From an uncultured Cohaesibacter sp. (GTDB lineage: Bacteria > Pseudomonadota > Alphaproteobacteria > Rhizobiales > Cohaesibacteraceae), in contig NZ_OY781091.1 in assembly GCF_963676275.1 (NCBI RefSeq), positions 1,032,775 through 1,096,774 on the forward strand: DNA of 64,000 nt. The letters are read 5' to 3'. Position 1 is the first letter of the stretch. Every line of letters begins with the position of its first letter. The notes below the pieces were generated by a model. That model did no database searches and was not told the DNA's origin. It worked only from the letters and a program-made list of their open reading frames with translations. Positions 8,341 to 48,031 of the stretch are shown one piece after another. A program made the position numbers and the translations under genes.

Positions 8341-9321
8341 TTAAGCGGCTTGTGATTGATGTTGCAAGCGGCGCCGTTTGATTGTCTTCTGTTTGATCCT
8401 TTTCCTTTGCTCCAGAATTGCCTGTCCTCTTCCGAAGTAGACATCGGCTGGTGTGAGATTTCCAAGGCTCTCATGGTACCGGTGATGATTATAGTGGTTG
8501 ATGAATGCAGCAATCTCATTTTCCAGATCCGCCGGGAAGAAGTAGTTCTCCAGCAGGATCCGGTTCTTGAGTGTCTGATACCAACGCTCGATTTTACCCT
8601 GTGTCTGCGGATGACCTGGCGCACCATGTATCTGTTTCATTGACCGGTCTTCCAGCCAACTTCCCAGATCCTCAGCGATGTAACATGGGCCATTGTCCGA
8701 CAACAGGCGCGGTTTATGTTCAACCTTCACGCTATCGCAGCCAGAAGCCTCAAGGGCCAAATTGAGGGTGTCGGTAACATCATGGACCTTCATGGTGGTG
8801 CACAACTTCCAAGCCACGACATAGCGAGAGAAGTCATCAAGAATGGTGGACAAGTAAAGCCACCCCCAGCCGATAACCTTGAGATAAGTGAAGTCGGTTT
8901 GCCACATCTCGTTGGGACGGGTTGTCTTGTCCCGGAATTCATTATCAGCTTTCATGACGATGAAGGCCGGAGACGTGATCAGGTCATGAGCTTTCAGAAG
9001 ACGATAGACCGAAGCCTCTGAGACAAAATTGCTTTCCGTGTCTGTGAAGGTCACTGCCAGCTCCCGGGGAGACAATTCGGTTTGCTCCAGAGCCAGTTCG
9101 ACGATCTTGTCACGGACATCATCCTCAATCCGGTTCCAGACCCGTGAAGGCGCAGAACTGCGATCTTCCAGCCCTTCAACACCATCGATCAGGAAACGGT
9201 CGTACCAACGATAAAATGTTGATTTAGGAATGCCCAACATCTTCAATGTCCGTGTTACCGGCAGATGGGATTCCTCGACAAGGCGGATGATCTCATGCTT
9301 CTCGGATGCGGGATATCTCAC
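8341..9321 (-). CDS. IS3-family transposase OrfB (DDE integrase core)
   Basis: The 326-residue protein begins with a helix-turn-helix segment (PKSTFYRWYDRFL) and then has the retroviral-integrase-type catalytic core: first Asp in WQTDFTYLKV, second Asp in LSDNGPCY and the Glu in QGKIERWYQTLKNR. The C-terminus carries the family signature NHYNHHRYHESLGNLTPADVYFG. Its ATG overlaps the OrfA stop in ATGA (9318-9321), so it may be expressed by coupling as well as by frameshifting. All catalytic residues are present and the frame is intact, so the element may be active. Confidence 0.93.
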   Translation of the reverse strand: MRYPASEKHEIIRLVEESHLPVTRTLKMLGIPKSTFYRWYDRFLIDGVEGLEDRSSAPSRVWNRIEDDVRDKIVELALEQTELSPRELAVTFTDTESNFVSEASVYRLLKAHDLITSPAFIVMKADNEFRDKTTRPNEMWQTDFTYLKVIGWGWLYLSTILDDFSRYVVAWKLCTTMKVHDVTDTLNLALEASGCDSVKVEHKPRLLSDNGPCYIAEDLGSWLEDRSMKQIHGAPGHPQTQGKIERWYQTLKNRILLENYFFPADLENEIAAFINHYNHHRYHESLGNLTPADVYFGRGQAILEQRKRIKQKTIKRRRLQHQSQAA

Positions 9322-9692
9322 TCTTCTTCGCCCCCATCTTCGATCATGCTTTTTTTAAGCAGACGGAGCTCAAGTGTTTGCTCTGCGACAACTTCCTTAA
9401 GATCCCTAGCCTCCTTGCGCAGCAACTTCACTTCATCGCTGGTGGCTGCACGAGCCGTATCTCCGGCCAGACGCTTCTTGCCAGCTTCAAGGAATTCCTT
9501 CGACCAGGTGTAATAAAGGCTCTCGGAGATACCTTCGCGGCGGCACAGGGCGGCGATGCTGTCTTCGCCACGCAAACCGTCCAACACAATGCGGATCTTC
9601 TCTTCTGCCGAATATTTCTTTCGGGTCTTTCGGCGGATGTCTTTGATGGTCATCTCTGCAGATGGCTTCTGCAGACCAGATTTCTGTCTCAT
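9318..9692 (-). CDS. IS3-family transposase OrfA (helix-turn-helix protein)
   Basis: The 124-residue protein has the OrfA pattern: a basic N-terminus, a helix-turn-helix around residues 30-70 with YSAEEKIRIVLDGLRGE and CRREGISESLYYTWSKEFLEAGK, and a C-terminal leucine-zipper-like helix (LLRKEARDLKEVVAEQTLELRLLKK). It binds the IS ends and multimerises. It lies upstream of and overlaps orfB within the element. Confidence 0.9.
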   Translation of the reverse strand: MRQKSGLQKPSAEMTIKDIRRKTRKKYSAEEKIRIVLDGLRGEDSIAALCRREGISESLYYTWSKEFLEAGKKRLAGDTARAATSDEVKLLRKEARDLKEVVAEQTLELRLLKKSMIEDGGEEE

Positions 9693-9743: not shown

Positions 9744-10358
9744 TCAATCCAATCTGTCCCATAGGTGCTGAGACGGAACACAAAACAACTCGAGATCGGG
9801 CCCGTTGATAAACGGCTCTGCGAACTCATTATTCTCCAGTTCGGCTGCTATCGCACCCGATTGAATGAGCTCAATGCCCTTACTATCGCCGCCATTGATT
9901 GGTTTGCGCACTAGAATTTCCTGAAAATCTGTACCCTTGATTTTCCTAATAGTTTTAGCCACTTTAAATCCGGCGCTTGAAGCAAGATGCTTAGAAATGA
10001 TTTTTTCTTCAGCAATAATCGCAACATCACCTCGGCAGGGAAAGCATGCGATTTGAGACAGCGCCGCAACTGCGGGGATCAGGCCTTCGCACTCCAGGTT
10101 TTTGAAAGCAGCGCAGATATTTACTACAAATGCCGGCTTTGTCGCACCTGAGGCGCTTGCGAGCAAATCGAGTGTTTCATCTAGCGTCAAAACAACGACA
10201 TTCGCGCCGAGATCTCTTAGGGCGTCTGTATATTGGCCTGCTATACGCTCTTCATAAAGATTGTAGAACAGCGAAGGCTGCAGCGCTTGAGTATCATTTG
10301 TGGCAAGAACGACAGTCAATCCCGAAAGGATTTCGCCAATATCTACACAAGTAGCCAT
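9744..10358 (-). pseudogene. Ddl-like ATP-grasp ligase gene, 3' end removed by the IS
   Basis: The product keeps an N-terminal domain (YNLYEERIAGQYTDAL, then CEGLIPAVAALSQIACFPCRGD) and the front of an ATP-grasp fold (EEKIISKHLASSAGFKVAKT, VRKPINGGDSKGIEL, EPFINGPDLELF), closely following the order of D-alanine-D-alanine ligases. The remaining third, which holds the Mg/ATP-binding Glu and Asn residues, is absent. The frame runs into the IS end at 9761 and stops within it, so the protein should be inactive. The start codon sits inside a copy of the site shared with the genes at 11600 and 14230, 15 bases after the recombinase stop. It could have been a peptide-bond-forming ligase in the same accessory pathway as the neighbouring aminotransferase; that is inference. 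Confidence 0.75.
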
Positions 10359-10376
10359 AATTTCGAGTTATCGTCA
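10352..10376 (-). repeat. Site A: diverged third copy of the recombination-site-like repeat
   Basis: Read on the minus strand this 25-bp stretch matches sites B and C at 21 of 25 positions, with the shared core ACGATAACT and the shared AATTATGG over the start codon. It begins with the TGA stop codon of the recombinase gene and ends six bases into the ATP-grasp gene. It has the same orientation as site C, so A and C are direct repeats flanking the recombinase, and B is inverted relative to both. Confidence 0.7.
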
Positions 10377-11321
10377 CCCAGGATCGATCTGCCCCAATGT
10401 GTCAGCCCGAGAAATCGCTTGAATAAGCGAATTGTCCGACACCCGAGTATAAATTTCAGTGGTCGCGATGGAAGCGTGGCCCAGCAAACGCTGCACTATC
10501 CGAATATCAATACCCTCTTCTATGAGCAGAGTGGCTGCGGAATGACGAAAGCGGTGTGGGGTAAGCGTTTCTGGTAATGCCAAGCCTGCAGACAAGTTTT
10601 TGAGGCGTTTTCTAAATGCCGCTTCAGACAACCGTGCTCCACGAATATTCTGAAACAAGAAACTTTCTGGTTGCTCATCCTGCCTTTGCTTGCTGTAGCT
10701 TTTCAGATCAGAAAGCAATCGTAAGTTTGTTACGTAGACCGAGCGTTCTCGATTACCTTTCCCAACAACACGGATCCGCGAGCAATCAGGAGACAGATCT
10801 CTGAGTTTAATGTGAGTAAGCTCTCCAATCCTCAAACCAGTTGCAGTCAAAAGTCTGGTCGCAAGTACGGTCACATAGTCGGAGGAAAAAGGGAGGTCTA
10901 TCCCATATCCGTTGTGGGTTGCAGTGGACGGGAACTGCCGTGGAGCGGAAATAAAAAGTTGCCGAAGTGTCTCGCGATCAATCGGTCTGGGTAGTCTCTT
11001 TGGCACCTTCAAATCGATTTCCAATTGTTCGAAAGGTGTGGGAGCGTTTTGAAGGGATTTTGAAGTCCATTTGAAGAACTTCTTCAAGCAAACAATCCTG
11101 CGTCGTACCGTCGCCGGTGCCAATCCCTGCCGATTGCGCAAATCCTCCATATATTCAAGGATGCAGTCGCCATCTATGCGAGGATCGGTTTCTCTCAAAA
11201 TATACTTGGCAAATGCACGAAGATCCTGACGGTAGCTGAGAATTGTGTTTTCACTCAGATTCTGTTGCGTACGACAATACTCAAGAAAAACTTCAATATG
11301 AGTAGCAAATTGAAAATCCAT
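10374..11321 (-). CDS. Tyrosine recombinase (XerC/D-like integrase)
   Basis: The 315-residue enzyme has an N-terminal SAM-like core-binding domain (about 5-90) and a C-terminal catalytic domain with every active-site residue: Arg164 in TGLRIGEL, Lys188 in VGKGNRER, His256 and Arg259 in PHRFRHSA, His282 in LGHASI and the nucleophile Tyr291 in EIYTRVS. It should cut and rejoin DNA at short sites with inverted arms. It lies between two inverted copies of a candidate site (B, C) and a third copy at its own stop codon (A), so these are the likely substrates. It is not the housekeeping XerC or XerD judged by its context among accessory genes. It may act in inversion, cassette exchange or element excision. 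Confidence 0.92.
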   Translation of the reverse strand: MDFQFATHIEVFLEYCRTQQNLSENTILSYRQDLRAFAKYILRETDPRIDGDCILEYMEDLRNRQGLAPATVRRRIVCLKKFFKWTSKSLQNAPTPFEQLEIDLKVPKRLPRPIDRETLRQLFISAPRQFPSTATHNGYGIDLPFSSDYVTVLATRLLTATGLRIGELTHIKLRDLSPDCSRIRVVGKGNRERSVYVTNLRLLSDLKSYSKQRQDEQPESFLFQNIRGARLSEAAFRKRLKNLSAGLALPETLTPHRFRHSAATLLIEEGIDIRIVQRLLGHASIATTEIYTRVSDNSLIQAISRADTLGQIDPG

Positions 11322-11349
11322 TTTTGGACATATCCTTCAAGCCTAATGG

Positions 11350-11378
11350 CTTATCTTGTTTTGTGTTTTTGTGTCCAA
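11350..11378 (-). promoter_or_regulatory. Candidate promoter of the recombinase gene
   Basis: On the minus strand TTGGAC (11378-11373), a 17-bp spacer and GATAAG (11355-11350) resemble a sigma-70 promoter. It lies 28 bp before the recombinase ATG. Confidence 0.4.
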
Positions 11379-11533
11379 TAAATGAGAGTTCCTAAGCCAA
11401 TCTTTCATGTCTGCCACAAATTGCATTTGGGAATAAGATTTTACGATGAAAATCAATTATTTAGATATGAAGGGCGGAGGACTCGCTTATAGAGAGAATT
11501 GTTCAATGTATGCGGGTGTGTAGTTATTACTGG

Positions 11534-11562
11534 TTGTAACTGTGGTCGAGGCTGACTAGAGT
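11534..11562 (+). promoter_or_regulatory. Candidate promoter facing site B and the aminotransferase gene
   Basis: TTGTAA (11534-11539), a 17-bp spacer and TAGAGT (11557-11562) read toward the gene at 11600 and lie just outside the inverted repeat. If the segment between sites B and C inverts, this promoter would stay in place and drive whichever gene is brought next to it. I saw no comparable promoter outside site C. Assignment is by eye. Confidence 0.35.
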
Positions 11563-11583
11563 AAATTCATTGTTTGATTAGTT

Positions 11584-11623
11584 ACGATAACTGGGAATTA
11601 TGGGTATGGCGGAAAAAGGAATT
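11584..11623 (+). repeat. Site B: left arm of a 40-bp perfect inverted repeat
   Basis: These 40 bases are identical to the reverse complement of 14207-14246 (site C). The repeat covers the ribosome site, the start codon and the first eight codons (MGMAEKGI) of the gene at 11600. The upstream part has short inverted arms, AGTTA and TAACT around CGA, as expected of a tyrosine-recombinase core. Outside the repeat the flanks diverge at once after one further near-match. Confidence 0.9.
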
Positions 11624-12760
11624 TTTTATCCTGACGACATTGATCGCATTACCCAAAAATACTTTTCAGCCCTTCGGGCAGATCGGGGCCACCTCACTGA
11701 TCCTTCCTATTGGTATGAGAATTACTCAGAAACTCTAAAGCGAGAGAAACTGGATCAGATTGGGCGGTATCGAAGTGACTATGGGCTGTCACTCGAGGCG
11801 GAAAAACCGACTATTATTGATGCACTCTGCGATTGGGATCAATCGGAGTATGGCTATGATGACGTCACAATCTGCGCGTCAGCGACAAGTGCTGCGCTGG
11901 TTGTTCTAGCTTACCTAAAAAACTCGCTGAATATTTCGAAAATCTATTTTGAGACCCCTTGCTATTTCGCAACGTTGAGTCAGGCGCGATATTTAGGGTA
12001 CCAACACACCAGAATCCCAACTTATCTAGACACTGGCTTCAAGTTTGATTGCAATTCAATACCTGATGGAGACCCAAAGATCCTTTGGTTGACACAACCA
12101 AGGTACGGATTGGGAATCAATCAAGAAAAAAGCTGCATTTCTGACGTTCTGAATAAATGTGGTCCCAAAGACTTTATAGTCATCGACGAAGCGGCTGAAA
12201 ATCTCTATCCAGCACACCTTGCAAATTTCAGTTTTAGGAACGATCCTCGCATCATAAAAATTCGCAGCCCATTCAAAGGAGCTGGAATCAATGGCCCCCG
12301 GATCTCCACGATAATTCATGGAAACAAGCATCGAAAGGCAATTGAGATCTATCTCGAACAGTTGCAGGGATCTATTGATGTGAATAGTCTTGAGTTTTGT
12401 CTGAGGACCATGGGAGATCAAGCATTCTTTAAATCCTTGCATTGCAGTACAAATCTGCAGATCAAAACATTGAACAAAAAGATCTTTCTTTCCTGTCTCG
12501 GAACGGGGCTGGTTCCCTCGCAAATGGACGGCGGTTACATCGGTTCTATCGCCGTTCCATATTCAGATCCCCAAATGAAGACCTATCACAAGCGCGAGGC
12601 CATCCTTCAATACTGTGCCGAGAACAGAATGCCAGTCATTCTCGGGGCCAACATGAACTTCGCAACTGACCCCAACTATGAGTTTATTAGGATAAGCTAT
12701 TTCAATAAAGAAGATACGCTCAGAAATGCAGTGGAAGTATTAGCTGGTTTTTCCCTCTGA
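11600..12760 (+). CDS. PLP-dependent aminotransferase-like protein (fold type I)
   Basis: The 386-residue protein matches the class I/II aminotransferase fold: a small-domain start, a cofactor-binding loop ASATSAALVVLAYL (about 93-106), Asp196 in VIDEAAENLYP to bind the pyridine nitrogen, the Schiff-base Lys226 in IRSPFKGAGINGPRIS and a C-terminal Arg in EFIRISYF for substrate carboxylate. The usual NPxNPxG segment is altered to TQPRYGLG. The substrate is unknown; histidinol-phosphate- or CobC-like enzymes are the nearest type by look. The first eight codons lie in the inverted repeat shared with the convergent gene at 14230, and the 3' ends overlap by 21 bp. Base composition looks more AT-rich than the flanking housekeeping genes. 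Confidence 0.75.
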   Translation: MGMAEKGIFYPDDIDRITQKYFSALRADRGHLTDPSYWYENYSETLKREKLDQIGRYRSDYGLSLEAEKPTIIDALCDWDQSEYGYDDVTICASATSAALVVLAYLKNSLNISKIYFETPCYFATLSQARYLGYQHTRIPTYLDTGFKFDCNSIPDGDPKILWLTQPRYGLGINQEKSCISDVLNKCGPKDFIVIDEAAENLYPAHLANFSFRNDPRIIKIRSPFKGAGINGPRISTIIHGNKHRKAIEIYLEQLQGSIDVNSLEFCLRTMGDQAFFKSLHCSTNLQIKTLNKKIFLSCLGTGLVPSQMDGGYIGSIAVPYSDPQMKTYHKREAILQYCAENRMPVILGANMNFATDPNYEFIRISYFNKEDTLRNAVEVLAGFSL

Positions 12761-14230
12761 TCCTTCAAGTATGCGCAACAAGAAGCCTCTGATTTTGGTG
12801 ATATGTTTGGTTGATACATGAAGACCAAATTCTAAAAGTAAATCACCAGGAAAAATGGATTTAAGAGTGATGCCATAATCTGTTGGATTTTGGTGATCAA
12901 ACCCGATCTTGAGCTGCACTAGTTTCCTAGTATCTGATGACGGCAGCGGTAGAACTGAATCGGATTGCCCAGGGCCCTGTACCGGCAACCTATCCAGCTT
13001 CAGCCTTTCACCAATGTCGGTGAGTTCGAACTTGAGTCGAGATGCAAAAAACAAGGCGATAACTGGCAAAAGGTGAGTATGTTGACTCCAACCCAACATC
13101 AACTCGTTTGGAGAGTTCATTCTTCTGACATCGGTGATGGTCAGACCCGGAAAACCAAATAGATATGGATACTCATTCACATAGTAGCTTCTATCGACAG
13201 GCCCAAGTACTTGCAAACGAAGCGGGTTTGTAGCACTTTTTGCAGTATTAATGACCTGATCAATGAATTGTTCGACAGTTTTTGCTAGCGCAATATGTAC
13301 GCCATAAACAGTTATCTGGGCGTTCTCAGACAGACGATCACTTCTTACGAGCAATCCGGTCAAGGAGTGAAATCTGATTATGGAATGGTAAAAGCAGCGT
13401 CCGCTGTCGTACAAAAAAAACAGAAACTCCTTGGTTAAGCGAATAAGATTGGCAAAAGTGAGCGGAATTTTTGCTGTTCCAAGCCAAGCCTCAGGCTCAA
13501 ATATGCGATCAAAGGTTTCAGACCCTTCAAGCGTAACTTCCGGATTCAAATAGTATGCAATTTTGAATGCTTCGATATCGGTTGAACATGCAACAGCTGC
13601 AATTTCTTGATCTGACAAAAACCGAAAGTCCTCGCCTATACTGCCATCTCGAATTCGGCAATCGGACAGACTTTTGTTAGCAATTCCAAAATTTCCAACC
13701 AAAGTCTGAACTTGCAAATCCACGTTCTCGAAATTGCAATCGGCTAGCAAACAGAACTCGAACAGTTTGTTCGAAGTTGTGCAGTTTGAGAAATCACAGT
13801 TCCAGAAACGACAGTCTTCGATCACCATGTGATCAAGCGCACAATCGCGAAATTCGACATCAAAAAACTCAACACTGGTTATGGATACATTGTGAAATGT
13901 GCAGTTTGAGAAAACGCAGTTTCTGAACTCACAATTGATGAGTGCCGCAAAATCAAAGCAGCAACCCTTAAATTGAGAATTCTGGAAATACGAATCCTTG
14001 CAATCAACATAGGAGAAGCTGCCGCCGTCCGATACCAGTTCCCGAATGGTGGACAATACAATATTGGCAGGCCGTAACTTATGTCTTTGGGTGTGCTTTC
14101 CAGTCAGAATGCTGTTACGGATTTCTTGAGAATTGGTCGAGAAGCTATTCAGATCAGTAAAATTTAGTTCCACCCCATTTAATTGATCCTGAAGAAAAAC
14201 TGCATCAATTCCTTTTTCCGCCATACCCAT
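12740..14230 (-). CDS. Pentapeptide-repeat protein with unknown C-terminal domain
   Basis: The 496-residue protein shares MGMAEKGI with the aminotransferase at 11600 because both starts lie in the same inverted repeat. After a linker, residues about 71-172 form pentapeptide-type repeats unusually rich in Cys, Phe and Asn (NCEFRNCVFSNCTFHN, DCRFWNCDFSNCTTSN), expected to fold as a right-handed quadrilateral helix. The C-terminal 320 residues form no domain I recognise; they include hydrophobic LTKEFLFFLYD and a beta-rich end. No signal peptide is seen, so it is probably cytoplasmic. Pentapeptide proteins often act by protein contact or DNA mimicry, but no role can be assigned. No clear promoter is seen in front, so it may be silent in this orientation. 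Confidence 0.7.
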   Translation of the reverse strand: MGMAEKGIDAVFLQDQLNGVELNFTDLNSFSTNSQEIRNSILTGKHTQRHKLRPANIVLSTIRELVSDGGSFSYVDCKDSYFQNSQFKGCCFDFAALINCEFRNCVFSNCTFHNVSITSVEFFDVEFRDCALDHMVIEDCRFWNCDFSNCTTSNKLFEFCLLADCNFENVDLQVQTLVGNFGIANKSLSDCRIRDGSIGEDFRFLSDQEIAAVACSTDIEAFKIAYYLNPEVTLEGSETFDRIFEPEAWLGTAKIPLTFANLIRLTKEFLFFLYDSGRCFYHSIIRFHSLTGLLVRSDRLSENAQITVYGVHIALAKTVEQFIDQVINTAKSATNPLRLQVLGPVDRSYYVNEYPYLFGFPGLTITDVRRMNSPNELMLGWSQHTHLLPVIALFFASRLKFELTDIGERLKLDRLPVQGPGQSDSVLPLPSSDTRKLVQLKIGFDHQNPTDYGITLKSIFPGDLLLEFGLHVSTKHITKIRGFLLRILEGSEGKTS

Positions 14231-14246
14231 AATTCCCAGTTATCGT
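14207..14246 (-). repeat. Site C: right arm of the 40-bp inverted repeat
   Basis: Reverse complement of site B (11584-11623) with no mismatch over 40 bases. Read on the minus strand the bases just upstream extend it into CCCAGTAACGATAACTGGG, with 6-bp inverted arms (CCCAGT, ACTGGG) around a 7-bp centre, which is the shape of a tyrosine-recombinase crossover site. It covers the start of the pentapeptide gene. Confidence 0.9.
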
Positions 14247-14395
14247 TACTGGGAGCCGACCTGCTGATGCTGGACCTCTCGGAGCCGTTCAGGCATAGTT
14301 GGTTTAGAAAGGACAGTCTGGCCTTGGGTTGAAAAAAACTTACTCAGTCCAAGGCGTGGATTGCCTCAGCAGATAGTCATTTCCCAAGGAGTTTC

Positions 14396-20268: not shown

Positions 20269-20675
20269 TACGCCTGTGCGGGAAAAAGGGTTTAGATCAG
20301 GGCTTCTCCCTGAAGCTGCCATTTAGAACGCCTCCGAGAATATCAGAAAAACCTGTCTTCCCCTTTTGCCGTCTTGGTTAAGCCCTCGCTTTGCATTATC
20401 TCGAACCCCCATCATTTCCCGATCTCCTCAAACGGTCTCTCCAATTGGCCTGATTTGGCCGAAGAACGGCTTTTGCCTCGATTGCCTGGGCCGCAATGGT
20501 TCGGATTGGCTTTCTTCCCCTGTCGGCAAACGACATTCCTCGCGAAACAACAAAGCCACTCCTTTCCATCCTCCGCTGTGCTTCGGTCGCAAGGATGCAG
20601 CGGCAATCGTCTTCTGCCTTTTGATCGCCATCGAGACCGCATGGTGCGGGATCGGAAACAAAATGGAGATTTAAA
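20269..20675. other. Stretch without a recognisable gene before the DUF736 gene
   Basis: Several overlapping frames of 77-148 codons are open on both strands but none has a convincing ribosome site or family match. It is probably decayed accessory DNA plus the leader of the DUF736 gene. Confidence 0.4.
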
Positions 20676-21002
20676 ATGGCTACCATCGGCACCTTCAAGA
20701 AGAACGGCACCAACGAATACACCGGCGAAATCGTCACTCTCAGCGTTCAGGCAAAATGCGTCCGCATCATCCCCGACATTCGCGCAACTGGCGATAACGC
20801 TCCCAGCCACCGGGTCCTAGTTGGCCGCGCAGAAATCGGCGCTGCCTGGTCCAAGCAATCCAGCGAAGGTCGTGACTATCTTGGCCTCAAACTGGATGAT
20901 CCCAGCTTCACAGCTCCGATCTACGCCAACCTCTTCGATGACGAAGACGGCGAAAGCTACATCCTGATCTGGTCTCGTCCCGATGGGCACCGTGGCGAAT
21001 GA
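20676..21002 (+). CDS. DUF736 family protein
   Basis: The 108-residue protein matches DUF736: MATIGTFKKNGTNEYTGEI at the start, a central ALNVK-like stretch (TLSVQAKCVRIIP), GRAEIGAAWSKQSSEGRDYL and the C-terminal LFDDEDGESYILIWSRP. The function is unknown. The family is typical of conjugative plasmids and integrative elements of alphaproteobacteria, which, with the IS and hip remnants around it, suggests a decayed mobile element here. No conjugation genes are in the window. Confidence 0.85.
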   Translation: MATIGTFKKNGTNEYTGEIVTLSVQAKCVRIIPDIRATGDNAPSHRVLVGRAEIGAAWSKQSSEGRDYLGLKLDDPSFTAPIYANLFDDEDGESYILIWSRPDGHRGE

Positions 21003-21008
21003 CATCGC

Positions 21009-21036
21009 GAAGGCTCCGGCAACCGCCGGAGCCTTC
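21009..21036. terminator. Bidirectional terminator between DUF736 and hipA
   Basis: GAAGGCTCCGGC and GCCGGAGCCTTC form a perfect 12-bp stem around AACC, placed between the two convergent genes. Confidence 0.8.
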
Positions 21037-21037
21037 T

Positions 21038-22294
21038 TCATGCCTTCTCGAGTTGGTCTCTCACAAGCTTGACGCGCGTGCCAATGATTTTCCTGACGGT
21101 CTTCAGGATCGGATGAAACAGGTCTTCGGCTTGCAGCTCGACGAGCAGATCATCGGCTTCTTCTTCGATCCTGTTGGCCATTGTCGCTAGTTCGGTGCGG
21201 AGCACTCTTTGGGCGGCCTTGGTTGGAGCAGTAAGTGCGTACCATTGTTCAAGCGTGATCGTGTCAGCAAGCCCCCGCTCGCCGATCTGCATGGCCAGCT
21301 TCTTGGTGAGACGCGGATAGGCCGCAGTGCAAACCACATCATAGAGGGGGGCTAGATCCGGTGTGCTGGCGTGATAGAGCAAAGAGAAATTCTTGGCATG
21401 AGCATCTGCATTGCCAACCATATAATGAAACATCACCATACGCTGGAAAGCGAGCCTGTCAGCTGCAGGGCGACGCGTGTGTTTTTGGATCAAGCCTGCA
21501 GACTGAGCGATCCCCGGTCCTCCTTCTTCTTCATATTTGAGTTCGGGCGGCACGCTGAGAGCCTGACAGAAGTCTTCCTGATGCAGTTTGGCAATGGAGC
21601 CATCGTCTTCCTGAACGCGGTCATAGCGTTCCACCAGAATGAAGTCGGTGTTTCCTGCTGAGGACTTGAAGACATGCGGAGCCTGAAGCCCGACGCGGTT
21701 TGCGAGACGCATGCAGAAGAGTTCATTCTCAACCGTACCGTCCAGCCCTTCAATGAAGGGTTTCAGGATATGGGTCGTCGGCTTGCCGGCTTTGGGGAGC
21801 GAGATTTGACCGTCTGTCACGCACACCGCCAGCTTGTCTTGTGCTCCGGCAAGAGACAAGCGCACACCTTCCTCTCCAGCGAGCAAAGGGCGCTCCCGCA
21901 ACAAATCAAGGATCTGGCTCAGACGCTTCTCGTCTAGCGGTTCGATGTCCTGAGAGCTGAAGTCTGGAGGGTCTGATCCCTGTGGCAAGAGCGAGAGGGC
22001 ACCAGCGCATTCACCACCGATGATTTCCAGTAGCCCAAAGGCATTTTGCTGCGAAACGCCAAGGGCGGCTGCGAGTCTTTTGCGCGCGCGCTCATCTGGT
22101 AGCAATCCAGAAAAGAAAGGCCGGGCTACCGCATCAGGGTAGGGGGCCTCTTGCAGGGGCATTGAGACTGAAAGAGCGGCTCCGTTGGAAGACAGATAGT
22201 CAGAGTCATAGAAGAAGCAGAGTTGTCCATCATCCATCTGAATTAGGGAGCCTGCCAAACTCTGGCGCAAATAGACATCAAGAGAGCGGCTCAT
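21038..22294 (-). CDS. hipA: HipA-type serine/threonine kinase toxin
   Basis: The 418-residue protein follows HipA: an N-terminal domain (1-95), the glycine-rich SLAGAQDKLAV loop near 147, the ATP-binding Lys in THILKPF, KLHQEDFCQAL, the catalytic loop MVGNADAHAKNFSLL with its Asp and Asn, and the metal-binding APLYDVV. All kinase residues are present, so it should be active. HipA toxins phosphorylate targets such as glutamyl-tRNA synthetase and induce growth arrest and persistence. Its ATG overlaps the antitoxin stop by four bases, so the antitoxin is made first. Confidence 0.92.
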   Translation of the reverse strand: MSRSLDVYLRQSLAGSLIQMDDGQLCFFYDSDYLSSNGAALSVSMPLQEAPYPDAVARPFFSGLLPDERARKRLAAALGVSQQNAFGLLEIIGGECAGALSLLPQGSDPPDFSSQDIEPLDEKRLSQILDLLRERPLLAGEEGVRLSLAGAQDKLAVCVTDGQISLPKAGKPTTHILKPFIEGLDGTVENELFCMRLANRVGLQAPHVFKSSAGNTDFILVERYDRVQEDDGSIAKLHQEDFCQALSVPPELKYEEEGGPGIAQSAGLIQKHTRRPAADRLAFQRMVMFHYMVGNADAHAKNFSLLYHASTPDLAPLYDVVCTAAYPRLTKKLAMQIGERGLADTITLEQWYALTAPTKAAQRVLRTELATMANRIEEEADDLLVELQAEDLFHPILKTVRKIIGTRVKLVRDQLEKA

Positions 22295-22515
22295 GCATCA
22301 TTGTCCCGGTTGTTGACCGTGAAGGTAAGGCCAAGGGTCTGCATGACTGTGAGAGCCAGTCCCACTTGGCAACTCTCCTTGCCATGCTCCAGCTCACGCA
22401 CAAAGCGCACGCCGACCCCCGAAAGGGCTGCCAGTTGTTCTTGTGTCAGCGCCTGCCGTTTGCGCTCTTCTCGAATGAGCGTTCCAAGATCTTGAGAATT
22501 ATCTATGATGGCCAT
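22291..22515 (-). CDS. hipB: HipB-type antitoxin and autorepressor
   Basis: The second ATG (22515) is preferred because AAAGGG lies eight bases before it; the first ATG at 22521 would be almost on top of that site. The 74-residue protein is one Xre-type helix-turn-helix domain (LGTLIREERKRQALTQEQLA, LSGVGVRFVRELEHGKES). It should neutralise HipA and repress the operon, and three palindromes lie at and upstream of its start. Its stop overlaps hipA in ATGA. Confidence 0.88.
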   Translation of the reverse strand: MAIIDNSQDLGTLIREERKRQALTQEQLAALSGVGVRFVRELEHGKESCQVGLALTVMQTLGLTFTVNNRDNDA

Positions 22516-22519
22516 GATC

Positions 22520-22633
22520 ATCCCTTTCGGGACGAATTTAACACAACTAACTTAAAAATGCACGAAAAAGACCCGAACGGGATGAAAGGTGCCATCAGAG
22601 TGTTGATGTGACAGAAAACATCCCGAACGGGAT
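22520..22633. promoter_or_regulatory. Three HipB operator palindromes
   Basis: Related palindromes lie at 22520-22533 (ATCCCTTTCGGGAC), 22570-22584 (around ACCCGAACGGGAT) and 22620-22633 (ATCCCGAACGGGAT). They sit before hipB at about 50-bp steps. HipB of E. coli binds TATCC/GGATA half-sites in the same position, so these are probable autoregulation sites. Confidence 0.7.
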
Positions 22634-23144
22634 GATGCAAGAAAAATGAGATTTGTTCCTATCTCGGGCTATCGGATAGAATGGAGAAAGACGTTCGCAT
22701 TTCGAATCCACCGATTGGAAGACGTTGAGCCGAAATTTTCAGGTTGAGCTGGAAGCGAGCCTGACCTAGCCTAAGGTCTAGTGCCTAAAACGGTGCCATC
22801 CACAGGCATGAAATTTTTGGTTGCAATTTTTTTATATCGAAATTTCAATCGGTTACGCCTCTGAAAATGACATCCGCCTCTGGGAATGAGCCGTTATTTA
22901 GAAAGGTCACCGAAGAGTTCAAAGCAACCTAGTGCAGCGTATCATCAATCAGAAACGGCCATGAAGCCAACATTTTAAAATGGCGGCCCTCTGTGGTCAT
23001 TCGACAGCCGTCAACTGGGGCAAGTCCACTTCTCCATTGCGGCCATTCGAGCGAAGTGCAGCATTTCCTGTGACGATGCAACCGGAGAGCGGACGAAGGG
23101 GACATTGGGTGCAACGATGTGAAGACACTCTGTCCGTTTACTCA
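22634..23144. other. Stretch without a recognisable gene
   Basis: About 500 bp between the hip operators and the 3' end of the membrane-protein gene. Short open frames here have no ribosome site or recognisable product, and I see no clear repeat or RNA. Confidence 0.4.
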
Positions 23145-46090: not shown

Positions 46091-46151
46091 CAGCCATGGC
46101 CCCGATGCGCTGAAAGATCAACAAGGCCGGATATCATGGTGATATCCGGCT
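45140..46151 (+). repeat. First copy of a 1-kb direct duplication (second at 46981-47992)
   Basis: The two copies are 1841 bp apart and remain in register to the end, covering the last 285 codons, the 3' untranslated bases and the terminator hairpin. A patch at 47023-47093 in the second copy instead matches 44741-44811 in the first gene. Confidence 0.9.
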
Positions 46152-47931: not shown

Positions 47932-47992
47932 CAGCCATGGCCCCGATGCGCTGAAGGATCAACAAGGCCGGATATCATGGTGATATCCGGCC
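46981..47992 (+). repeat. Second copy of the 1-kb RTX duplication
   Basis: Partner of 45140-46151. Scattered single-base differences are visible (for example 45357-45420 against 47198-47261), so the copies are not recent identical duplicates. Confidence 0.9.
47967..47991. terminator. Terminator between the second RTX gene and the convergent malY-like gene
   Basis: The same GCCGGATATCA/TGATATCCGGC hairpin as at 46126, here lengthened by flanking AAG/CTT bases so that it can act in both directions. Confidence 0.8.
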
Positions 47993-48031
47993 TTTGCCAT
48001 TTGTCAGACTTGCAAGAAATGCAAGCAATTG

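Follow-up and report, generated by a model that had tools for sequence, protein, structure and literature searches.

Known inversion systems and the Cohaesibacter locus

Typically, an inversion switch toggles a promoter or exchanges related gene ends, and in shufflons and the invertible hsdS loci (R64 Rci, PsrA/cod) a tyrosine recombinase exchanges gene ends by inversion. The locus described here lies in a stretch of 64,000 nucleotides from an uncultured Cohaesibacter sp. (contig NZ_OY781091.1, positions 1,032,775 to 1,096,774), hereafter the window, and is very probably a site-specific inversion switch that alternates two genes by means of an adjoining Xer-like recombinase. In contrast to shufflons and hsdS loci, the family to which it belongs appears to swap whole, unrelated genes, and the coding sequence shared by the two alternatives ranges from zero to a few codons, with eight in the window. 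The nearest precedents are the Vpma locus of Mycoplasma agalactiae and the Vsp locus of M. bovis, which likewise have a tyrosine recombinase gene, of the Xer1 type, in the locus; in Vpma, according to the excerpt of the source used here, recombination sites lie at -1 to -72 of the start codons and inversion links a different open reading frame (ORF) to one promoter (PMC2268961). Vpma and Vsp vary one family of related surface lipoproteins, whereas the cassettes of the window family are exchangeable and contain pairs of unrelated genes that mostly meet tail to tail; up to two arms flank the recombinase. The pdif/dif modules of Acinetobacter are similar in that Xer-type sites bound mobile gene modules, but those sites consist of two 11-bp motifs around 6 bp, and the portion of the source at hand describes neither a dedicated recombinase between modules nor a convergent alternative pair (PMC12907356).

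A survey of inversions in sequence data, in the part used here, lists none of four alphaproteobacterial samples as positive (PMC5903667), and a 2025 paper, likewise represented by an excerpt, reports that recombinases often lie beside anti-phage genes, with their function there unknown (PMC12529663). Our search of the open-licence literature, preprints excluded, found no account of convergent unrelated gene pairs between recombinase sites. The window family appears to exchange two whole, sequence-unrelated and recurrently paired genes behind a core that combines a recombination site with a start codon, perhaps with a ribosome-binding site and, on one side, with the stop codon of the recombinase.

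A two-gene cassette bounded by inverted repeats

The proposed invertible cassette spans 2663 bp (11584..14246), as delimited by the repeat, the ORFs and an inversion carried out in silico. The two copies of the inverted repeat (11580-11623 and 14207-14250) are 44 nt long and 98% complementary, and their exact part measures 40 nt (11584-11623 and 14207-14246), in agreement with the perfect 40-bp repeat noted in the first-pass annotation. This is the longest of two inverted pairs of at least 22 nt reported in the window, and its 28-nt core occurs at only two places in the 5.03-Mb single-contig genome when up to three mismatches are allowed. At the recombinase-proximal end of this arm, here called the right arm, the site ACGATAAC-TGGG-AATTAT (11584..11601, forward strand) supplies its last two core bases as the AT of an ATG. 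The distal site (14229..14246, reverse strand), identified from the site pattern and the table of spacers, has the same spacer TGGG. Both cassette ORFs open with MGMAEKGI and their 3' ends overlap by 21 bp. Inverting the segment between the repeats in silico exchanges the genes and keeps both frames intact, and the product is identical for any crossover point within the 40 nt. The shared start, the tail overlap and the swap without frame breakage, all claimed earlier, were therefore found as described.

The proximal gene (11600..12760, forward strand), presumed ON, encodes a 386-aa enzyme resembling aminotransferases dependent on pyridoxal phosphate (PLP), and the distal gene (12740..14230, reverse strand), presumed OFF, encodes a 496-aa pentapeptide-repeat protein with a C-terminal part that a low-confidence model predicts to be helical. 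The first-pass annotation called the two genes unrelated. In sequence they are: they fall into different Pfam/NCBIfam families and separate homology clusters rather than one family. They are not an arbitrary couple, however, since related pairs are present at three other loci (L035, L015 and L169; loci and genomes are cited by our own L and G numbers).

Next to the cassette lies the Xer-like tyrosine recombinase gene (10374..11321, reverse strand; 315 aa; Pfam Phage_integrase 4e-34), intact as first annotated and proposed to act on all sites of the locus. Residues R164, K188, H256, R259, H282 and Y291 are invariant across six aligned relatives, and we take them to be the R-K-HxxR-H-Y catalytic set of tyrosine recombinases. 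The protein does not pass the NCBIfam cut-offs for the housekeeping XerC/XerD (193 bits against 335 and 183 against 330), nor those of the integron integrase models (93 bits against 265 and 56 against 435; attC sites were not searched for). It is uncommon, with matches in four of 20 genomes of its family at 1e-40 and in six of 397 genomes of its order at 1e-75, its own genome included in both counts. A search of viral contigs gave three weak relatives only (25, 25 and 32%), so that collection holds no sign of a phage origin.

Sites with a common geometry and matching spacers

A profile scan of genome contigs found 87 relatives of the recombinase, from which 80 loci were kept; on plasmids, six of the 30 matches listed were examined. 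In the genomes sampled, the switch family is mainly alphaproteobacterial. The family site is GATAAC-NNNN-AATTAT, and it contains or abuts a start codon. We scanned for ACGATAAC-NNNN-AATTAT with up to two mismatches, for which a shuffled control gave three matches per 1.14 Mb. The exact pattern occurs at 53 places in 25 of 33 genomes chosen for holding a recombinase relative (1-4 in each); by our count 46 of these places are inside loci already collected, and four are on contigs of the G400, G407 and G408 cases. Reversing the pattern gave no match in the 33 genomes. A narrower form of the pattern is present in seven of 385 genomes of the class, including the window's own, and its control gave none. 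Matches of this class-wide scan include G543, G614, G675 and G709.

Of 75 tabulated recombinase rows, 10 are from Bacillota, and the site labels of six of these were left uncounted because they come from a loose pattern in AT-rich DNA; the counts that follow use the other 65. A site lies within 500 bp of the recombinase in 34 rows (21 upstream, 20 downstream, seven both). Upstream, 20 of 21 sites point away from the recombinase, with 19 at 175-264 bp and that of L061 at 80 bp. All 20 downstream sites point away as well, 17 of them between -5 and +10 bp relative to where the stop codon ends and three at 64-67 bp; at an offset of -5, the recombinase stop is the TAA inside GATAAC. Three loci (L014, L015 and L016) have four sites each, one inverted pair per side of the recombinase. 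Because sites can lie upstream, at the stop codon or at both, some loci have two invertible arms. A well-supported clade of 15 recombinases (L011, L013, L041, L044-L046, L048, L050-L054, L056, L059 and L062) has no site within 500 bp, and in L044 and L052 there is one site several kilobases from the recombinase.

The same arrangement is seen at the gene ends. An ATG shares the last two core bases at 30 of 60 ends, and at the others the first usable start codon, a putative one, lies at -1 to +21 nt, three of these being short non-gene ORFs (L014 twice, L084). In 19 of 30 pairs the gene tails overlap by 4-64 bp, in five they are separated by gaps of 0-30 bp, and six pairs include more genes or are decayed. 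In our reading, the spacer may often double as a short ribosome-binding sequence ahead of the ATG. The crossover had been placed inside the shared 5' coding end of the two genes. Eight codons are indeed shared, at this locus only, but the crossover is probably not in coding sequence because the conserved core extends from just upstream to the ATG itself; it most likely takes place within this core.

That the inversion was not directly observed would also fit a chance repeat or an assembly artefact. We regard this explanation as practically negligible, as the genome is a single contig, the core is confined to this locus, 34 of 65 recombinase loci share the geometry, and the reversed-pattern control was empty.

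Matching spacers direct recombination by tyrosine recombinases, and the comparison of spacers suggests that they would do so at these sites. The four-base spacer is identical in 30 of 30 tabulated pairs (0.11 by chance) and also in L057; with L055, an exception given below, 31 of 32 pairs match. We paired each site with its nearest opposed one; among the 30, three (L038, L047 and L084) and, in addition, L057 needed a search for exact repeats, and the rest were found independently of the spacer. Between the two arms of a locus the spacer differs in all seven two-sided loci (the window, L014, L015, L016, L025, L028 and L061). The window and L014 are close kin among these seven.

Some loci have further elements around the sites. 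In eight (L009, L010, L023, L026, L027, L033, L035 and L049), conserved blocks with repeated GCAAC(A/T)GT words lie between recombinase and site, and an inverted repeat resembling GCGGCC...GGCCGC lies just outside the core, possibly a promoter or an accessory site. L061 has an extra site with spacer CAGG at the very end of its contig (13957-13973), which hints at tandem cassettes.

Proposed mechanism

We propose that the Xer-like recombinase would act at paired GATAAC-NNNN-AATTAT sites with matching spacers and flip the 2663-bp cassette. Each flip would place the other gene beside the DNA on the recombinase side, where it would be expressed, and the far gene would face outward DNA and presumably be silent. 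In an upstream arm, the proximal gene would be read from the intergenic stretch; that of the window (11322..11579), from the recombinase start to the proximal right-arm site, lies inside a 97% match to L014 and is presumed, from its position, to hold promoters. In a 3'-side arm, whose site lies at the stop codon of the recombinase gene, the proximal gene would be transcribed as part of the recombinase operon. The enzyme and its partner would be alternating parts of one system that should not be active together. Sequence and comparison establish the sites, their matching spacers, the intact frames, the recurrence of pairs, the two orientations among relatives and the exchange of cassettes. We infer from the family that the repeats are the sites of this recombinase, and further that flipping takes place in this organism, that expression is limited to the proximal gene and that both genes belong to one system. 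Counts of promoter-like sites were not used as evidence (window, 3 against 5.9 in shuffled sequences; L078, 23 against 19.0; L082, 28 against 28.2; L097, 20 against 14.4; L095, 21 against 13.6).

Both orientations and contig ends at the sites

The evidence for flipping is indirect. Five types of gene pair, homologous in both members, were found in both orientations relative to the recombinase. In the PLP/pentapeptide type, the enzyme is proximal in the window, L015 and L169 and the partner in L035. A methyltransferase paired with a 428-aa protein is proximal in L030 and L061 and distal in L026 and L065, and a CDP-alcohol transferase paired with a membrane protein is proximal in L014 and distal in L068. 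For an ATP-grasp-like enzyme with a 553-aa partner, the enzyme is proximal in L036 and L078 and the partner in L057; for an ATP-grasp enzyme with an ATPase, the corresponding loci are L047 and L038. The expectation that, without inversion, relatives would always be found in one orientation with diverged repeats is contradicted. These loci come from different species and therefore show change over evolution, not within a culture.

In eight comparisons of homologous pairs, the identities of the two genes are 67.2/67.9, 53.9/63.6, 43.9/44.1, 42.6/34.0, 99.1/98.9, 30.5/29.3, 26.4/28.7 and 29.6/33.3%, within 4 points of each other in six and 9.7 and 8.6 points apart in two. In the seven distant comparisons pN is 0.20-0.53 and pS 0.73-0.90 for both genes, and both members of most pairs look constrained.

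Contigs of draft genomes end at the sites more often than expected, in eight of 30 loci, whereas 0.24 would be expected when 12 nt around up to four sites are counted. Seven of the eight end at the repeat edge (Ruegeria halocynthiae by its segment contig) and Hoeflea at a fixed 95 nt beyond. In R. halocynthiae, a 4983-bp contig consists of exactly repeat, segment and repeat and shares 95 nt with the contig of the recombinase; in Roseobacter sp. MH60115, the outer edge of the repeat coincides with the end of one contig, which a second contig overlaps by 127 nt. Both flanking contigs end at AATTAT in Palleronia and 95 nt after the start of GATAAC in Hoeflea marina. The contig of Ruegeria atlantica ends 6 nt past the core and that of a Sphingorhabdus metagenome-assembled genome (MAG) 2 nt past it, L061 ends after its further site, and a Nereida contig ends where the site of its relatives begins. 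In a Lachnospiraceae genome (G1161), both flanks stop 4 nt beyond the site. The overlap lengths of 95 and 127 nt resemble assembler k-mers. The breaks may reflect mixed orientations, and a duplicated cassette would give the same. Together with the geometry, the spacers, the two orientations and the cassette borders described below, these contig ends strongly support the earlier proposal that inversion of the segment exchanges two whole genes at a shared start.

Several observations weigh against such a switch. No site was found within 500 bp in 31 of the 65 recombinase rows, among them the members of the clade of 15, gene fragments and loci on contigs that stop short, and the upstream site of L037 points the opposite way. 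Spacers are unlike in a pair beside the recombinase of L055 (TCGG and TAGG) and in an opposed couple of G416 (C7, 56629/60363), and the four pairs found through exact repeats bias the set toward spacer matching. The window's intergenic stretch (11322..11579) has no match to the sigma-70 consensus. Three identical Phaeobacter plasmids are all in one orientation, the window genome is one contig in one state with no inverted molecule directly observed, and some cassettes are decayed (L014, the window's left arm). Synonymous sites near saturation also make selection on both genes of a pair a rough inference.

Exchange of cassettes between loci

The recombinase units of the window and L014 are 97% identical; the match starts 1 nt ahead of the left core and stops 12 nt beyond the right one, and outside it their cassettes differ. 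Positions 20370-22884 of the window are also 93% identical to 14316-16831 of L014, and the two therefore seemingly share a chromosomal neighbourhood despite different cassettes. Conversely, L026 and L076 share a 1.79-kb cassette at 99% identity, bordered within 4 nt of the cores, and blastn at 1e-20 found no other match between these two loci. Identical site-bordered cassettes in unrelated contexts, different cassettes beside nearly the same recombinase unit, and the Phaeobacter plasmids in their single orientation would be expected of a cassette-exchange platform like integrons or pdif modules, in which inversion within the locus would be rare or incidental. We consider such a platform improbable: the start codon is in or beside the site, convergent pairs recur, most cassettes keep both genes, and the two orientations and the contig ends at sites fit repeated inversion. 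Inversion and cassette exchange may coexist.

A complete cassette in L026 (16904-18691) is about 6 kb from the nearest recombinase found and may be an orphan or be served in trans. The methyltransferase cassette of L014 (8552-10520) is decayed: its opposed ORFs have almost identical coding sequence at their ends, which would fit an inverted copy of the 3' part of one gene having overwritten the other.

What the gene pairs encode

A Pfam scan covered 16 cassettes. In 14 of them one gene passes the cut-off of an enzyme family, and the assignment is weaker in the window and L036. The families are SHMT, D-Ala-D-Ala-ligase-type ATP-grasp, carbamoyltransferase, glycosyltransferase, methyltransferase, cyclopropane synthase, CDP-alcohol transferase, UbiA, PAP2 and lycopene cyclase. 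Four partners pass the cut-off as AAA-type ATPases (L009, which also has an Mrr domain, L015, L021 and L047) and two resemble them below it (L016 and L038); we read these ATPases as STAND-type. Apart from the ATPases and the pentapeptide repeats of the window, the remaining partners match no Pfam family above its cut-off. Seven (L019, L020, L022, L024, L064, L068 and L076), each with 5-7 hydrophobic stretches, are probably membrane proteins. Pairs of an enzyme with a P-loop ATPase, membrane, pentapeptide or uncharacterised partner recur over large distances, and the sites offer a genomic handle for finding undescribed enzyme-partner couples.

Related arrangements occur with other repeats in Lachnospiraceae and in one gammaproteobacterial genome. 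The methyltransferase pair of L065, from a gammaproteobacterial MAG, lies between a different repeat. Nine of 23 Bacillota loci have an inverted repeat of at least 15 nt near the recombinase; four of these hold an opposed unrelated pair (L078, L082, L095 and L097), and the other five repeats are long or flank the recombinase. L078 has the ATP-grasp-like enzyme with the 553-aa partner. In L082, an ATPase with tetratricopeptide repeats (TPRs) is opposed to an ATP-grasp enzyme related to that of L016, and since this ATPase has no match to that of L038 (E 0.53), only the ATP-grasp half of L082 is linked to the alphaproteobacterial cassettes. A P-loop protein is opposed to a TIR protein in L097, and in L095, from Blautia, the gene opposite a TIR protein encodes a ThsA-like SIR2-STALD protein. 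The genomes of L082, L095 and L097 each contain their own site pattern once per direction and nowhere else; those of L078 and L065 carry other repeats and gave no match in that site-pattern search. The L095 pattern is present in six of 387 genomes of its family, and site matches were seen in G832, G1104 and G1147. In another Lachnospiraceae locus (L195, 4047-9367), a 1141-aa ORF follows a site and is opposed by a glycosyltransferase-like ORF, an arrangement that recalls the glycosyltransferase/ATPase cassettes of Alphaproteobacteria; a second site was not found there.

Are the pairs immune systems?

Thoeris genes (ThsA/ThsB) normally lie in the same direction and are made together. L095 resembles Thoeris in pairing a ThsA-like SIR2-STALD protein with a TIR protein, but its genes are opposed and bounded by inverted repeats. 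The ThsA-like protein matches PADLOC ThsA at 4.2e-182 over residues 8-473 of 475, with STALD and SIR2_2 in Pfam; the TIR protein is nearer to PDC-S66 (6.6e-25) than to ThsB (1.6e-15, residues 3-106 of 257). This is the only cassette found in which both genes resemble a known immune system.

We favour an account in which inversion switches between two genes of a single system, perhaps an immune one. More specifically, and only tentatively, the cassettes may be widespread two-component immune systems gated by DNA inversion, in which an enzyme and an opposed sensor or effector would be expressed one half at a time. The active combination would then arise only on a flip while the first protein persists, or when a sender meets a receiver cell, and a hub would hold up to two cassettes and be able to trade them. 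We keep this proposal tentative because the ThsA/TIR cassette alone is immune-like and the 11 alphaproteobacterial partner proteins scanned with PADLOC gave nothing better than a marginal 0.002. If the pairs are parts of immune systems, as that cassette suggests, a dangerous pair would be kept apart until the DNA is rearranged. The marginal PADLOC matches would also fit ordinary bet-hedging phase variation, unconnected with immunity, between two functions of the cell surface or of metabolism, as would the many cassette enzymes from families that modify lipids, glycans or small molecules. Bet-hedging of this kind is a possible account, if not a probable one, and it is at odds with the several P-loop ATPase partners, one with an Mrr domain and one with TPRs, and with the ThsA-like/TIR cassette of the Lachnospiraceae.

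Proteins of the window cassette

The label of PLP aminotransferase given to the proximal gene draws support from a similarity to NCBIfam DapC (1.1e-6), but at 28 bits against a cut-off of 454, and with no passing Pfam family, the label is weak by itself. Relatives of the protein are encoded in L035 (2.8e-6) and L169 (26%), and a PDB search gave none at 0.1. At 1e-12, a search of 397 genomes with this protein alone matched only the window's own genome and G235, in which the order is recombinase (39% identity), site, PLP gene, convergent pentapeptide gene and opposed site. Searches of plasmids with both cassette proteins gave no match at 0.001.

The distal protein passes Pfam Pentapeptide_4 (5.3e-13) and has relatives in L015, L035 and L169, each of which has one hydrophobic C-terminal stretch; the window protein has none at the same threshold, and an assignment as membrane-spanning was therefore rejected. 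Its pentapeptide repeats resemble those of Hailong HalA (1.3e-8), but the score is 34 bits against a cut-off of 250, the match lies in the repeats, and the hydrophobic stretch is absent at that threshold. A PADLOC scan of the two cassette proteins found no match at 0.01, and their AlphaFold models are poor, with mean pLDDT of 42.5 and 34.0 (three-row alignments).

The left arm and a second repeat

On the other side of the recombinase, the left-arm proximal site ACGATAAC-TCGA-AATTAT (10357..10374, reverse strand) lies at the recombinase stop codon and supplies the ATG of the next gene. This gene (9744..10358, reverse strand) encodes a truncated ATP-grasp-like enzyme of 204 aa, with a weak Pfam match (0.11) and relatives of 332-365 aa, and is related to the cassette enzymes of L057, L036 and L016 (3e-8 to 5e-4). 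A distal site and a partner gene were not found in this arm. Next to the truncated gene is a two-ORF insertion sequence with an rve integrase core and HTH_Tnp_1 (8341..9692, reverse strand; from ORFs and Pfam), the transposase ORFs lying 50 bp beyond the end of that gene, and the left arm is probably dead, broken beside this element. Elsewhere in the window, the second long inverted repeat (46110-46150 and 47967-48007) is 41 nt long at 78% and contains the motif GCCGGATATCA.

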